Assembly (NCBI RefSeq): GCF_000018285.1
Contig: NC_009901.1
Location: 1,115,001-1,179,000 of the forward strand
Direction: 5' to 3'
DNA length: 64,000 nucleotides
Source of the DNA: Shewanella pealeana ATCC 700345
GTDB taxonomy: Bacteria > Pseudomonadota > Gammaproteobacteria > Enterobacterales > Shewanellaceae
In this document: positions 48,973 through 54,018 of the stretch, piece by piece
Numbering within the stretch: the stretch's first letter is position 1
Layout of the letters: every line of letters begins with the position of its first letter
Translations under genes and position numbers: made by a program
Notes under the pieces: generated by a model
What the model was told of the DNA's origin: nothing
Seen by the model: only the letters and a program-made list of their open reading frames with translations
Databases searched by the model: none

Positions 48973-49301
48973 CTATGGCCTCTCAACAATACTCGATACA
49001 AGCAGATATGTTTCAATTAATATCCCACGGTTCATCAGTTATGTTTTTGACTAAGTTCACAAAATAATGAGCCTTAATGATTGTTAATTTTCACTTCAAT
49101 TCATGAGTTCAGGAAATCTTTACAATGGGCAAATAGCTTTTACCTTTGATTCGCGCAGTTGAACTTAGCTTATGTTGCGAAAATTTAAATAGAATCATTA
49201 AAAAACCTAGTGATATTTCGGTGGATAATTGCACAAATTGTGGCAAATAAATCAATACCGACTAGTTTCAATAAGGTGCATAAGAAGATAAGGGAATGCT
49301 T
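48973..49301. other. Intergenic region upstream of the cbb3-like operon
   Basis: About 330 bp of AT-rich DNA between the small ORFs and the cytochrome gene. It must hold the operon promoter. I looked for an FNR/EtrA palindrome (TTGAT-4-ATCAA) and saw none. Confidence 0.5.
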
Positions 49302-49634
49302 ATGAATCGATTACCTCTATTGATAATCCTGATTTTTGGGTCAGCAAGCGCATCGGCAGATTACGACCCCAGCTTTAAAATCGGCAAAGAGAAAGCCAAA
49401 GTTTGCATGACCTGTCATGGAGAGGATGGGATCTCAACAATCGACCCTTATCCCAATTTACGCGGTCAAAAAGTGGGGTATTTAATATCGGCGCTTAAAG
49501 ATTACCAGTCAAGGCAGCGTACTAGTGGCTTGGCCATTTTGATGCAGCAACAAGCAGATACGCTTAGCGAACAGGATATGAAAGACATTTCCTACTATTA
49601 CTCTGTGTTAGGCACAAAACAAGAAGAGGAGTAG
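49302..49634 (+). CDS. Small periplasmic cytochrome c (monoheme)
   Basis: A 110-residue protein with a signal peptide (MNRLPLLIILIFGSASASA) and one heme site CMTCH (about residue 35) followed by GEDGISTIDPYPNLRGQ, as in cytochrome c4/c5-type class I cytochromes. A probable Met ligand is in ILMQQQ. The ATG at 49302 has AAGGGA 7 nt upstream; the ATG at 49296 overlaps that site too closely. The gene is 3 bp before ccoN, so it is part of the oxidase operon and may be its electron donor. Confidence 0.88.
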   Translation: MNRLPLLIILIFGSASASADYDPSFKIGKEKAKVCMTCHGEDGISTIDPYPNLRGQKVGYLISALKDYQSRQRTSGLAILMQQQADTLSEQDMKDISYYYSVLGTKQEEE

Positions 49635-49637
49635 GGC

Positions 49638-51044
49638 ATGCAGGTAAGCACTGAGCAATATGACGTAAAGGTTGTTCGTTATTTTATTGTGGCTGCCGTT
49701 ATTTGGTCTATTGCGGGTATGTTTATTGGGGTTGTGCTTGCTGCCCAGCTCTATTGGCCTGCACTTAATTTTGATTCTGAATATATCCAATTTGGACGGT
49801 TACGCCCTGTACATACCTCTGGCGTGATCTATGGTTTTGTCGTCAATATTCTAATGGGAACCTCCCTCTATATTGTGCAACGAACAGGGCAAACGCGGTT
49901 GTTTAACCGTAGTTTATCTTGGATGGTGTTTTGGGGCTGGCAGCTCATTTTACTGCTTGCGTTGATAACCTTGCCTCTAGGTTACACCACGAGTAAAGAA
50001 TATGCGGAGCTTGAATGGCCCGTTGATATTCTGATTGTGATTGTTTGGGTGCTTTATGCCGTATTGTTTTTTGGCACTATCGCCAAACGAAAAGTGAAGC
50101 ATATCTTTGTCGCCAACTGGTTCTTTGGCGCTTTTATTATTGTAATTGCACTAATTTTTATTCTGAATAATTTAGCCTTACCAGCCTATTTCATGAAGTC
50201 TTACTCAGTATTTGCAGGCGCTCAAGATGCCATAGTTCAGTGGTGGTGGGGGCACAACGCTGTCGGCTTTTTACTCACAGCCGGTATTATCGGCATGAAC
50301 TACTACTTCATTCCTAAACTGGCTGAACGTCCAATCTATTCTTACCGACTGTCTATTATCCACTTCTGGGGATTAGTGGGCTTTTATACTTGGGCTGGAA
50401 CTCACCACCTTCTCTATTCGTCAGTGCCAGTTTGGCTACAAAATATCGGTATCGTGATGTCGCTGATATTGTGGCTACCCTCTTGGGCTGGTGCATTTAA
50501 TAGTGGTATGACACTACTGCAAAATAAACAAAAGCTAAAGACCGATTACATTATGTGGTTCTTTATGTCGGCAATTTTGTATTACTGCCTAGCGACATTT
50601 GAAGGGCCTCTGCTGGCGATACGCTGGTTCAATATGCTTGCCCATAATACAGAGTGGGTGGTCGGCCATGTACATTCCGGTGCACTTGGTTGGGTGGCTA
50701 TGTCTGGGATTGCCGTTTTTTATTATTTCATTCCGCGGCTTTGGGGTAAGAGCGGTTTATGGTCTAACCGCTTACTTAAAGTGCACTTTTGGTTGGCACA
50801 TCTGGGTGTAGCCTTATATGCAATTGCACTTTGGGTCGCAGGTATTGGAGAAGGCTACATGTGGCTTACTCAGCGGGAGAATGGCTCTTTAGCATACAGT
50901 TTTGTTGAGGCTATGGACTTTAAAGCGCCGTGGTTATTTGTGCGTTTCTTTGGTGGGGCCTGCTTTGTATTGGGTTTATTGTTGATGGCGTTTAACTTGT
51001 ATAAGACGGTATCGATGACTGCGGAGGCTAGTGAAGATGCTTAG
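49638..51044 (+). CDS. ccoN: cbb3-type cytochrome c oxidase catalytic subunit I
   Basis: A 468-residue heme-copper oxidase subunit with about twelve membrane helices. Ligands are placed as in characterised CcoN: H59 (low-spin heme b, RPVHTSGVIYG), H206 (CuB, WWWGHNAVGF), the cross-linking Y250, H256/H257 (CuB, WAGTHHLLYS) and H344/H346 (HVHSGALGWV). It reduces O2 to water. GAGGAG sits just before the ATG. No ccoQ, ccoG, ccoH, ccoI or ccoS is nearby, so assembly factors must come from elsewhere. Confidence 0.95.
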   Translation: MQVSTEQYDVKVVRYFIVAAVIWSIAGMFIGVVLAAQLYWPALNFDSEYIQFGRLRPVHTSGVIYGFVVNILMGTSLYIVQRTGQTRLFNRSLSWMVFWGWQLILLLALITLPLGYTTSKEYAELEWPVDILIVIVWVLYAVLFFGTIAKRKVKHIFVANWFFGAFIIVIALIFILNNLALPAYFMKSYSVFAGAQDAIVQWWWGHNAVGFLLTAGIIGMNYYFIPKLAERPIYSYRLSIIHFWGLVGFYTWAGTHHLLYSSVPVWLQNIGIVMSLILWLPSWAGAFNSGMTLLQNKQKLKTDYIMWFFMSAILYYCLATFEGPLLAIRWFNMLAHNTEWVVGHVHSGALGWVAMSGIAVFYYFIPRLWGKSGLWSNRLLKVHFWLAHLGVALYAIALWVAGIGEGYMWLTQRENGSLAYSFVEAMDFKAPWLFVRFFGGACFVLGLLLMAFNLYKTVSMTAEASEDA

Positions 51045-51651
51045 TAAAGACTTTACACAATCCTTAGTGATCCTCATTGTGGCTACTGTGTTAGTCGCTA
51101 GCTTTTCAATCGTGGTGCTCATTGTGCCTAGCTTGGTACGCACCGATGCGATAAGAGTTAACTCATTAGCCAAACCACTCACGGCAGTGCAAGTCGCAGG
51201 GCGTGATGTTTACATTAGTGAGGGCTGCCATGTATGTCACACGCAGATGGTGCGTAATATCGAACCTGAAGTGAAACGTGATGGGCGAGCCAATAAAGAG
51301 TCCGATGATATTTATGAGTTTCCCAATCTTTGGGGCTCGAAACGCACCGGGCCTGATTTAACCAACCTAGGCCGAAAGTACTCTGAGCAATGGCAGCGAA
51401 TTCATCTAATTAACCCTCGGCAGGTGGTGCCGACGTCATTGATGCCCGCTTACCCTTGGCTGTTTAGACAGGTATTAAGTGGTGATGAGATAGAAGCTAA
51501 AATGCGTGTACTACAGACCTTAGGGGTGCCTTACACTGACGATGAGATCGAAAGGGCGCGTCTACAGGTTAAAGGACTGACCAAAGGGGAGGCTTTGATT
51601 CAATATTTGCAAAGCTTAGGGCAAGATACCGCCGATGATCAGGAGCGATAA
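51037..51651 (+). CDS. ccoO: cbb3-type cytochrome c oxidase monoheme subunit II
   Basis: A 204-residue membrane-anchored cytochrome: an N-terminal helix (SLVILIVATVLVASFSIVVLIVPSL), one heme site CHVCH in YISEGCHVCHTQMVRN (about residue 58), and the axial Met in PTSLMPAYPWLF. This is the canonical CcoO pattern. I choose ATG at 51037 with GGAGG 9 nt upstream over GTG at 51031. It overlaps the end of ccoN by 8 bp. Confidence 0.94.
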   Translation: MLSKDFTQSLVILIVATVLVASFSIVVLIVPSLVRTDAIRVNSLAKPLTAVQVAGRDVYISEGCHVCHTQMVRNIEPEVKRDGRANKESDDIYEFPNLWGSKRTGPDLTNLGRKYSEQWQRIHLINPRQVVPTSLMPAYPWLFRQVLSGDEIEAKMRVLQTLGVPYTDDEIERARLQVKGLTKGEALIQYLQSLGQDTADDQER

Positions 51652-51652
51652 T

Positions 51653-53824
51653 ATGACTGTTTTCTGGAATATTTGGGTCGTTGGGTTTATTGCTATCTTT
51701 CTAATTTTTATGGCGTTAGTCATTGTTAAATATTGGCGCGATAACCATAGTGCCGATAAAAATAAAACCATCGATACCTTCGACGGTATTGATGAGAATG
51801 ATGCGCCGCCACCTCGCTTACTGTTTATCTCCTATTTAGTCGCTTTTGCCATTTCTGCAGTTTTTCTCGTGCTTTACCCTGGTCTTGGTAATTGGAAAGG
51901 CTTAATGGGCTGGCAGCAAAGTGATGATGCCTTAAGCTCACCAGTTACCGACTTAACGATGGAAATGGCAACACTAAATGATAAAAGCTTGCTAGCACTT
52001 GCGAATAACAAAACGGTGACGGCAAGCGGAGCATCGCTATTTGAAAACCATTGCGCAGCATGCCATAGACGTAATGCTCAGGGGCAAAAGCACTTTCCAA
52101 ATCTAATTGATAATGAGTGGCTCTACGGTGGTACGCAGAGTGATATTTTAGACTCGATAAAGAAAGGCAGACACGGGGCAATGCCCGGTTGGAAAGGGGT
52201 TTTGTCAGAAGACCAGATCACTAAAATGGCGTATTACATCGCGTCACTGCAACCTAAGCGTCGTAACCTAAATGCGCCGCAGGTTAAAATCGATCTAGGT
52301 AAAGACATTTTTGCCGAGTATTGCGCCAGTTGTCATGGTGATGGCACTGTGGCAAATACTCAAATTGGTGCCCCTTTACTTAACGATGCTATCTGGCTTC
52401 ATGGCGGTAGCATCGAAGAGATTAAGCACACTATAGATTTTGGTTTGAATAACTTGATGCCTGCATTTGAAGAGCAGCTGACAGCTGATGAGATCTTGGC
52501 TATTGGTGCTTACATTACTGAACAACGCCTTGAATACGATGCCAAACTCGCAGCACTTGATCCTGAGTCAGTAAAGCGTGGTGAATACCTAGTTAATGCA
52601 GGCGATTGTGTTGCCTGCCATAGCTCAGAAGGCGGTGAGCGATTCGCGGGTGGCTTGCCATTCAAAACACCTTTTGGCACGGTATATTCAACCAATATTA
52701 CCCCCCATGTGAGTGAAGGCATTGGTAGCGACAATTATGCCGACTTCAAAGCGGCGTTATTTGATGGTAAAGGCCGCCATGGTTATCTCTACCCTGCAAT
52801 GCCTTACACCTCTTATCAATATTTAAAAGAGCAGGACACCCAAGATCTGTGGAGCTATTTGCAGTCGATTACAGCAGTCGCAAGGCAAAACGATAAGAAT
52901 GAGATGATCTTCCCGTCGAATATCCGTACCGGATTATTAGCTTGGAATTTGGTGTTTATGGATACCAATCCACTTTCTTATGAGGCGCCCAAGCATGCTC
53001 AACTCACTGAGCAAGAGTTAAAGGAGTGGCAACGAGGTAAATACTGGGTGATGGGGCTCGGGCATTGTAGCGAATGTCATACTCCACGAAATTTAGCTCA
53101 GGCATTAATACCTGAACAAATATTCCAAGGTAACTTGATTGATGGTTGGAACGCCCCAGATATCAGCGCCAAAGAGCTCTATCAAGATAGATGGGATATC
53201 GAGTCGTTAACTGACTTTTTGCACACAGGGCACTCGTCTAAAGGCTCTGCATTTGCTGGTATGGCAGATGTAGTGAAAAACAGTACTAGTTTAATGACAC
53301 GCAAGGATATTAGGACTATCTCTCGTTACCTGCTAGTGGGGGATAAGAACAACACCATTCCAGCTAATACTAAGCAACTTAACCCAGCAGGCTTTACCCA
53401 AGAGGCGTATGCCGATAAGCAGTTTAATGCTTATTCATTGTATGCAGAGACTTGTGGAGCCTGTCATGGTGAAGATGGTAAAGGTCGTGACCCCATAGCG
53501 CCAACCTTATTGAATAACGGCATTATCATGCACAGTGACCCGTTCAATACGATAGCGGTGACGATACGTGGACTTTCGCCAACGTATTTAGATGAAGAGC
53601 GTAACTTCATGCCGATGACTAGTTTTCAAAATGTATTGACCGACACTGAGCTGGCTAATCTTATTAGTTTTGTACGCTACTATTTAGGCGATAGAAAAGA
53701 GCCCGTTACCGCAGAGCAAGTTAAGGCTGTGCGTCAACAACTCGAAAAGGCAGGTTTTGCAGGTAATCTACACACCACGCCTGATATGTATGACCACAAA
53801 GATGGTGATATTGATATCGACTAG
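51653..53824 (+). CDS. ccoP: Pentaheme fusion of CcoP-like oxidase subunit and AdhB-like triheme cytochrome
   Basis: A 723-residue protein, more than twice the length of normal CcoP. Residues 1-90 have two membrane helices and the CcoP hallmark LYPGLGNWKG. Residues 115-300 are the usual two CcoP cytochrome domains (hemes at C134-H138 and C224-H228, with IDNEWLYGG and LNDAIWLHGG). Residues 305-700 resemble the triheme cytochrome subunit of membrane alcohol/gluconate dehydrogenases: hemes at C319-H323, C472-H476 and C601-H605, with GGLPFKTPFGTVYSTNITP and HCSECHTPRN. No dehydrogenase gene is present nearby. AGGAG is 7 nt before the ATG at 51653. It is the last gene of the operon. The frame is open throughout, so the fusion is not a stop-codon artefact. 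Confidence 0.9.
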   Translation: MTVFWNIWVVGFIAIFLIFMALVIVKYWRDNHSADKNKTIDTFDGIDENDAPPPRLLFISYLVAFAISAVFLVLYPGLGNWKGLMGWQQSDDALSSPVTDLTMEMATLNDKSLLALANNKTVTASGASLFENHCAACHRRNAQGQKHFPNLIDNEWLYGGTQSDILDSIKKGRHGAMPGWKGVLSEDQITKMAYYIASLQPKRRNLNAPQVKIDLGKDIFAEYCASCHGDGTVANTQIGAPLLNDAIWLHGGSIEEIKHTIDFGLNNLMPAFEEQLTADEILAIGAYITEQRLEYDAKLAALDPESVKRGEYLVNAGDCVACHSSEGGERFAGGLPFKTPFGTVYSTNITPHVSEGIGSDNYADFKAALFDGKGRHGYLYPAMPYTSYQYLKEQDTQDLWSYLQSITAVARQNDKNEMIFPSNIRTGLLAWNLVFMDTNPLSYEAPKHAQLTEQELKEWQRGKYWVMGLGHCSECHTPRNLAQALIPEQIFQGNLIDGWNAPDISAKELYQDRWDIESLTDFLHTGHSSKGSAFAGMADVVKNSTSLMTRKDIRTISRYLLVGDKNNTIPANTKQLNPAGFTQEAYADKQFNAYSLYAETCGACHGEDGKGRDPIAPTLLNNGIIMHSDPFNTIAVTIRGLSPTYLDEERNFMPMTSFQNVLTDTELANLISFVRYYLGDRKEPVTAEQVKAVRQQLEKAGFAGNLHTTPDMYDHKDGDIDID

Positions 53825-53941: not shown

Positions 53942-54018
53942 TGGTGGCCCCTCACGGACTTGAACCGTGGACCTGACGATTATGAGTCGTATGCTCTAAC
54001 CAACTGAGCTAAGGGGCC
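53942..54018 (-). tRNA. tRNA-Ile2 (anticodon CAU, lysidine type)
   Basis: On the minus strand a 77-nt cloverleaf starts GGCCCCTTAGCTCAG and ends with encoded CCA. The acceptor stem GGCCCCT pairs with AGGGGCC, and the T arm has GGTTCAAGTCC. The anticodon CAU is at 53982-53984. The acceptor and D-arm sequence match the E. coli tRNA-Ile2 type (ileX), not elongator tRNA-Met, which starts GGCTACG. It should therefore be modified by TilS to read AUA. It has its own terminator. Confidence 0.9.

Follow-up and report, generated by a model that had tools for sequence, protein, structure and literature searches.

The locus described here raises the question of what a triheme cytochrome, of the kind that serves periplasmic dehydrogenases, is doing at the end of a terminal oxidase subunit. 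It lies in a 64,000-nucleotide stretch of the Shewanella pealeana ATCC 700345 genome (a single contig of 5.17 Mb), hereafter the window, where four near-gapless genes occupy 49302-53824 on the + strand: a gene for a small cytochrome c is followed by ccoN, ccoO and a ccoP whose reading frame runs on into a triheme module. The operon as a whole encodes seven c-type hemes. Gene layout, profile matches and CXXCH counts bear out the original prediction, made from the letters of the window, of a four-gene cbb3-like operon whose last gene joins a CcoP with two helices and two hemes to a triheme domain. In the most likely reading, to which we give a probability of about 0.55, this is a second cbb3-type oxidase whose triheme module acts as an extra electron inlet. 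The operon is composed as follows:

49302..49634, + strand: small secreted monoheme cytochrome c, c554/c4-like (Pfam PF00034)
49638..51044, + strand: ccoN, catalytic subunit of a C-family (cbb3) heme-copper oxidase (TIGR00780, 595.6 bits against a cut-off of 583)
51031..51651, + strand: ccoO, monoheme membrane-anchored subunit (PF02433, 196 bits; NF011055, 227 bits against a cut-off of 218)
51653..52543, + strand: CcoP half of the fusion, residues 1-297, with two CXXCH heme domains (TIGR00782 over cut-off; FixP_N)
52544..52576, + strand: short linker, residues 298-308 (11 residues), the least conserved stretch of the fusion protein
52577..53752, + strand: triheme module, residues 309-700 (homology to periplasmic dehydrogenase cytochrome subunits; tree; identity 0.72-0.76)

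The CcoP half matches the NCBIfam ccoP model at 192.6 against a cut-off of 179.95 (residues 43-295 of the 729-residue form) and starts with two N-terminal membrane helices, which show up in the hydropathy profile at residues 1-30 and 53-81. Residues 306-700 match the triheme subunits of glucose, alcohol and fructose dehydrogenases, and among solved chains 8hdd_B, 8gy2_B, 7w2j_C and 8gy3_A; to the first three, as AdhB-type triheme subunits, the three CXXCH domains are homologous over their full length. The five CXXCH motifs of the entire protein stand at residues 134, 224, 319, 472 and 601 (723-residue numbering). Each is followed by at least one Met that is invariant across 24 aligned homologues, and these residues could serve as second heme ligands.

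Such a protein might be suspected of being a sequencing or assembly artefact, a frameshift or a decaying fusion, and the original prediction had allowed for a stop codon at residues 300-310 that would split the open reading frame (ORF) in two. No stop codon is present at these residues. When other genomes were searched for the 723-residue architecture, as had been proposed, two protein searches (best 120 of 2976 and best 120 of 2217 proteins) yielded 140 distinct homologues, and all 140 listed are single frames with five CXXCH motifs. One TGA was counted in a genome match (G561), yet the 702-residue frame there keeps all five. Given these homologues and the strong conservation, and with no supporting point found, artefact and decay are ruled out for practical purposes.

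Conservation was compared in a hand-picked set of 24 homologues. The linker shows a pairwise identity of 0.41 and zero invariant columns; an AlphaFold2 (AF2) model of low confidence makes this region helical, with helices at 278-300 and 304-315. The triheme domains reach pairwise identities of 0.72-0.76, against 0.61-0.67 for the CcoP regions, and 43% of the columns are invariant in each of them. Conservation is higher on the triheme side of the fusion, which is therefore under selection.

The catalytic core is that of a cbb3 oxidase. The alignment of CcoN with its P. stutzeri counterpart spans 463 residues and needs no gap, and the six His ligands and the cross-linking Tyr, whose roles are those known for cbb3 oxidases and read from the alignment to 3mk7, are present in all 31 CcoN rows compared (30 distinct genes, 13 of them pentaheme-type; three of 33 matches, which had no locus, were left out). 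The operon also has the monoheme CcoO and the at least diheme CcoP that replace the CuA subunit II in this family, and is, by its sequence, a second, complete C-family (cbb3-type) O2 reductase beside a normal ccoNOQP. The latter lies elsewhere in the same genome, with canonical ccoN, ccoO and ccoP and, in the place of ccoQ, a 58-residue ORF; behind ccoP come fixH and the genes of a CcoI-like copper ATPase and a DsbD_2-family protein. Because the canonical locus carries these three, the extra oxidase can borrow assembly factors in trans. All 13 fusion-bearing genomes in the CcoN search likewise hold a canonical-type CcoN, to which the pentaheme-operon CcoN of the same host is 53-56% identical. 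In the CcoN tree the pentaheme rows, together with those of the tetraheme operons described below, stand on a separate branch from 14 canonical CcoN (support 100/100), and three tetraheme rows group together (100/96). Compared with canonical cbb3 (P. stutzeri CcoNOP, 3mk7 and 5djq), the pentaheme operon thus shares the CcoN catalytic residues, a monoheme CcoO and a two-helix diheme CcoP, but differs in its separate CcoN branch, the additional small cytochrome c gene, the triheme-lengthened CcoP and the lack of ccoQ. This lack had been predicted for the window and extends to its relatives, as the ccoO-ccoP gap of -29 to +9 bp leaves no room for ccoQ in the 25 complete loci of 26 compared. It is not treated as class-defining, because CcoQ is reported to be dispensable for cbb3 activity (PMC8780969).

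The fusion operon is not rare: it is conserved in a large number of marine Vibrionaceae and in part of Shewanella, with a patchy occurrence in these two groups and a few others. Source names among the 140 listed homologues are Shewanella, Vibrio, Aliivibrio, Photobacterium, Psychromonas, Sinobacterium and uncultured Microbulbifer. Full-length fusions occur in 13 of 117 Shewanella genomes, with one further fragment at a contig edge. Wider searches, in which two or three candidates were scored per genome and distant members may be missed, gave 18 of 394 genomes of the order, a single one (that of the window) among 369 of the class and five of 398 of the phylum, all five from the same order. Among 26 loci aligned side by side (numbered L, their genomes G), the four-gene operon is intact in 25, on one strand and with gaps of at most 46 bp between the genes; these represent 24 distinct genomes, L010 and L077 being one. 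The small cytochrome c gene with its single CXXCH is found in the same 25 and is absent from the exception, L079, which is of the tetraheme sister type.

Public names for the fusion gene include c-type cytochrome, diheme cytochrome c-553, cytochrome c6, thiosulfate dehydrogenase and CcoP, so that annotation conceals the architecture. The suspicion that it is little described held up: among the titles and abstract openings listed in searches of an open-access library, none described a CcoP with a triheme dehydrogenase-type module, although an earlier mention in subscription journals, whose work on oxidase classification these searches mostly did not cover, is possible. Within the same scope, no listing described cbb3 operons with sorAB or tsdA. 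Already known are cbb3 oxidases as such, a one-heme CcoP extension in Neisseria and an engineered CcoP-cytochrome fusion.

Where the module came from was addressed by comparison with stand-alone cytochromes. The closest of these, at 40-43% identity, belong to IorAB-type gene triads made up of the cytochrome, an IorB-like molybdenum subunit and a 177-residue subunit; for the subunit of this type in the Psychromonas triad, membership of a 2Fe-2S family was confirmed. In a maximum-likelihood tree with 18 of the 25 loci, to be read with midpoint rooting and long branches in mind, the 18 fusion modules form one clade (100/100) nested within the IorAB-linked cytochrome group (100/99), while the node that unites them with their nearest IorAB set has lower support (93/82). 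Two cytochromes encoded beside GMC dehydrogenases fall outside the IorAB-linked group. The placement was unchanged when four solved cytochromes were added (of pyrroloquinoline quinone (PQQ) alcohol, glucose, fructose and molybdenum aldehyde dehydrogenases), and the solved molybdenum aldehyde dehydrogenase cytochrome does not join the IorAB set. The fusion has a single origin: judged by tree placement, the module has a common ancestor with the cytochromes that serve IorAB-type molybdenum dehydrogenases, and its fusion to CcoP happened once.

The trees called for in the original prediction, of the AdhB-like part and of CcoN, thus place the fusions in one clade and their CcoN on a distinct branch. 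The AdhB-like nature of the module stands as far as homology to the triheme family is concerned, whereas the proposed kinship to alcohol or gluconate dehydrogenase subunits does not, since the module groups with IorAB and apart from the sampled GMC and PQQ types. The earlier label would be explained by raw similarity: among solved subunits, those of glucose and alcohol dehydrogenases give the module higher scores than that of aldehyde dehydrogenase. With the dehydrogenase triheme subunits (8hdd_B, 8gy2_B, 7w2j_C, 8gy3_A and the IorAB type) it shares homology across its entire length; it differs from them in being fused to CcoP, in having no dehydrogenase of its own and in its single origin.

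The simplest argument for an inlet comes from a sister group on the same CcoN branch, in which CcoP is likewise lengthened by further heme domains. Sister-type CcoN was found in a Shewanella genome (G003, L079), in a genome of the same order but a different family (G631, L098), and in a Vibrionaceae genome (G836, L119/L132). The last holds three cbb3-type CcoN, and its sister operon lies about 8 kb from its own pentaheme operon. The gene sets are:

L079:6914-12399 (G003) and L098:5367-10757 (G631): ccoN, ccoO, tetraheme CcoP of 487-488 residues, SorA, SorB-like cytochrome
L132:8197-12749 (G836): ccoN, ccoO, tetraheme CcoP, TsdA-like diheme protein

Unlike the pentaheme operons, these three carry a dehydrogenase gene of their own, show no separate small cytochrome before ccoN and have two extra CcoP hemes. 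The two C-terminal domains concerned are 30-37% identical to the small cytochrome of the window's operon, and their hemes are probably c4-like. The candidate substrates, sulfite and thiosulfate, follow from the enzymes encoded, for which the evidence consists of genes from as few as three operons, with scores near or below curated cut-offs. SorA of L079 and L098 scores 554 and 547 bits against an NCBIfam cut-off of 600, with 409 bits for the L098 protein to a solved sulfite:cytochrome c oxidoreductase subunit A, and the SorB-like cytochrome scores 88 bits against 93. The TsdA-like diheme protein of L132 gives 232 bits to 5lo9 (named Cytochrome C, and presumably the TsdBA fusion), 132-135 bits to solved thiosulfate dehydrogenases and a SoxA/TsdA Pfam match below cut-off. 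The gene set of L079 and L098 suggests a sulfite:O2 route, and the c4-like CcoP hemes would plausibly be the electron acceptor of the dehydrogenase, built into the oxidase. Since dehydrogenase, acceptor-type hemes and oxidase are encoded together in the sister operons, the extra CcoP hemes are most simply taken as an inlet, and we read the pentaheme and sister groups together as cbb3 oxidases with putative built-in electron inlets.

Applied to the pentaheme operon, the inlet reading would have a periplasmic donor give electrons to the triheme module, from which they would pass to the two CcoP hemes and on, in the presumed order, through CcoO and CcoN heme b to heme b3-CuB, where O2 would be reduced. 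That a cytochrome at the C-terminus of CcoP can feed the oxidase is indicated by an engineered Rhodobacter capsulatus bc1-CcoP-cyt cy fusion (PMC7876108; PDB 6xkx), which differs in being man-made, in adding one heme and in its tie to bc1. If the inlet reading is correct, many marine Vibrionaceae and some Shewanella may send a share of their electrons to O2 by another route than the one over quinol, bc1 and cytochrome c that genome annotation leads one to assume, and models of energy yield and O2 affinity would presumably change. A more general proposal, which we advance only tentatively, regards this CcoN branch as a modular cbb3 chassis whose CcoP heme modules (c4-like with SorAB or TsdA; triheme, related to molybdenum dehydrogenase cytochromes) would let a single membrane complex couple dehydrogenation in the periplasm to O2 reduction as direct substrate:O2 oxidoreduction, by-passing the quinone pool and bc1; the pentaheme form would be one member of this set.

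The identity of the donor was addressed in 29 fusion-bearing genomes (13 from the genus and 18 from the order search, two in common), which were checked for three types of dehydrogenase known to partner AdhB-like cytochromes. MoCoBD_1 proteins were found in 16, five of them in frames above 900 residues, the size of IorB, and 11 in frames of about 800 residues. An IorB-sized protein lies beside its own triheme cytochrome in G004, G091, G723 and G836, four of the five (G683 fell outside this check). Seven of the 11 shorter proteins were scanned, and all seven score far above the cut-off for XdhB of xanthine dehydrogenase (1266-1302 bits against 849.5); the remaining four equal them in size and come close in score. 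Gluconate_2-dh3 is present in three of the 29; for PQQ alcohol dehydrogenase none of the 29 passes the cut-off, and G561 and G698 have sub-threshold matches (150 and 141 bits, frames of about 790-800 residues). A possible classic partner thus exists in seven of the 29 genomes, and 22, the window's own included, encode no partner of these types (or 20, should the weak PQQ matches be taken as partners), 11 of them without any MoCoBD_1 protein whatever.

These counts bear directly on a dedicated link from dehydrogenase to O2, in which an IorAB-type or other AdhB-partner enzyme would dock on the triheme module. The closest stand-alone kin of the module serve IorAB-type dehydrogenases, the sister operons encode SorA or a TsdA-like protein, and in Psychromonas an iorAB-triheme cytochrome-xdhC set (L060:3567-9220) is convergent with the pentaheme operon. 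Set against this are the rarity of IorB-sized proteins, most of which already have a triheme cytochrome, the XdhB identity of the shorter proteins scanned, and the scarcity of the gluconate and PQQ types, so that we consider the link unlikely. As 22 of the 29 genomes lack a partner, an AdhB-type enzyme, one of the two kinds of donor that the original prediction envisaged, cannot be the general one, but it may still serve in the other seven. The other half of that proposal, that no dehydrogenase stands beside the operon, was borne out: no AdhB-partner type adjoins it in the window, where the oxidoreductases encoded closest upstream, a DAO-family FAD protein and an NADP succinate-semialdehyde dehydrogenase, belong to other kinds. 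In most of these 29 hosts the module would seem to work with some partner outside the dehydrogenase kinds tested.

The leading candidate for the donor is the operon's own small cytochrome c, which may be fed by bc1 or by another dehydrogenase. It is the best guess because it is the sole other soluble carrier always present in the operon. Its best matches among solved structures are c554, c552 and c4, and the solved cbb3 entries 8smr and 8snh include cytochrome c4 as a chain. S. oneidensis is not known to have any cbb3 besides the canonical one. In that host, cbb3 is fed mainly by bc1, with a minor contribution of CymA (PMC4335978).

The lack of a common partner would also fit a less specific role, namely that of a heme wire or charge store, in which the three extra hemes extend the periplasmic reach of the oxidase and buffer electrons for any small cytochrome. 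Hosts and gene neighbours are very different, and no dehydrogenase partner among the three types tested is conserved. The invariance of 43% of the columns in each triheme domain nevertheless suggests a more specific interaction, which makes this role rather improbable.

The main rival to an inlet concerns the direction of electron flow. The triheme module could be an outlet or hub through which the oxidase arm supplies electrons to a different acceptor in the periplasm, for instance a diheme peroxidase. A precedent is the tri-heme CcoP of Neisseria, whose third domain is explained by fusion with c5 and for which a link to NirK is proposed (PMC2924362); a CCP_MauG-type diheme protein is moreover a convergent neighbour in two Shewanella genomes (L076:7404-8981; L077:11406-12950 and L010, the latter two being the same genome). 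The remaining 23 of the 26 loci, that of the window among them, showed no such diheme neighbour, no acceptor is conserved alongside the operon, and dehydrogenase cytochromes normally take electrons away from the dehydrogenase. An outlet is therefore about as improbable as the heme wire. The Neisseria protein shares the principle of a natural C-terminal CcoP extension by a donor-type cytochrome domain but, as described in that source, has one extra c5 heme after an AlaSerPro-rich region and belongs to ccoNOQP. The window's fusion is not of this type, having three hemes of dehydrogenase-cytochrome kin, an 11-residue linker in place of a low-complexity one and a CcoN on a separate branch.

Several observations weigh against the inlet reading. 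The window's genome holds no MoCoBD_1, Gluconate_2-dh3 or PQQ alcohol dehydrogenase over cut-off, so that none of the three partner types is encoded alongside the fusion or elsewhere in its own genome. A dehydrogenase gene is absent from the pentaheme operon in all 25 loci, unlike in the three sister operons. The predicted structure of the fusion (predicted local distance difference test score, pLDDT, 60.7; predicted template modelling score, pTM, 0.51) is too weak for the heme chain to be judged on it. The 13 pentaheme rows form a clade of modest support in the CcoN tree (86/78). By analogy with Neisseria (PMC2924362), an added CcoP heme domain could be an outlet. Finally, an orphan GMC dehydrogenase (L101/L133) considered as a donor shows no association with the fusion: it occurs in all 13 bearers and in 95 of the 104 other Shewanella genomes, i.e. 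in 108 of 117, although it could still act as a donor.

The GMC locus has features of its own. At G000:C1:4282430-4284725 (L133:4428-6723) the oxidoreductase is encoded with a 172-residue partner and no adjoining cytochrome; the partner has a Tat-like signal, as judged by eye, and no Pfam or NCBIfam family match.

Operon neighbours vary by host, and none is conserved family-wide; polyamine-type genes are found in several Shewanella and EAL/GGDEF and hydrolase genes in many Vibrio. Polyamine-type genes for transport and catabolism (roles from Pfam) lie upstream in the window and in some relatives; as other loci lack them, a functional link was discarded and their position put down to chance. 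Neighbours also prompted the idea that this CcoN branch mainly removes NO, as part of a response to nitrosative stress. In L062, L073 and L074, from the earliest-branching fusion lineages (Vibrionaceae), hcp and hcr lie near the operon, in L062 and L073 together with a NorR-like activator. However, a sigma-54-like site (one mismatch) precedes hcp in all three and the oxidase operon in none, CcoN retains the full oxidase ligand set, and the window has no hcp-hcr neighbour; we regard the idea as very improbable. Exact sigma-54, FNR, NorR and NsrR patterns were likewise absent from the 560 bases before the heme motif of the small cytochrome in 25 loci, and loose CRP-like matches occur in three of these upstream regions.

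Gene starts were assigned as follows. For the small cytochrome c, ATG 49302 is preferred to ATG 49296, because only the former is kept in 11 of 11 aligned Shewanella rows. The listed start of ccoO is GTG, and a downstream start is possible; against TIGR00781 this protein scores 187 bits, below the cut-off of 200.65. The last ORF ends at 53824 and comprises 729 residues from ATG 51635 or 723 from 51653. Gene spacing favours 51653, and the lengths of relatives, mostly 701-734 residues, fit both.

No phage record gave a match at E 1e-30, and Rfam returned the downstream tRNA and one sub-threshold match. The tRNA, a tRNA-Met (cat) at 53942-54018 on the minus strand, lies between the fusion gene and rpoD and could mark the point of operon insertion. 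Upstream, a conserved element precedes the operon:

49261..49280, + strand: conserved 5' leader element ACTAGTTTCAATAAGGTGCA, 22-41 bases ahead of the operon start codon

It recurs with 0-3 mismatches in all 15 Shewanella fusion-locus rows (14 genomes), among which the DNA farther upstream has largely diverged, and shows seven mismatches or no match in Vibrionaceae and Psychromonas rows. It is a candidate promoter, ribosome-binding or regulator site.

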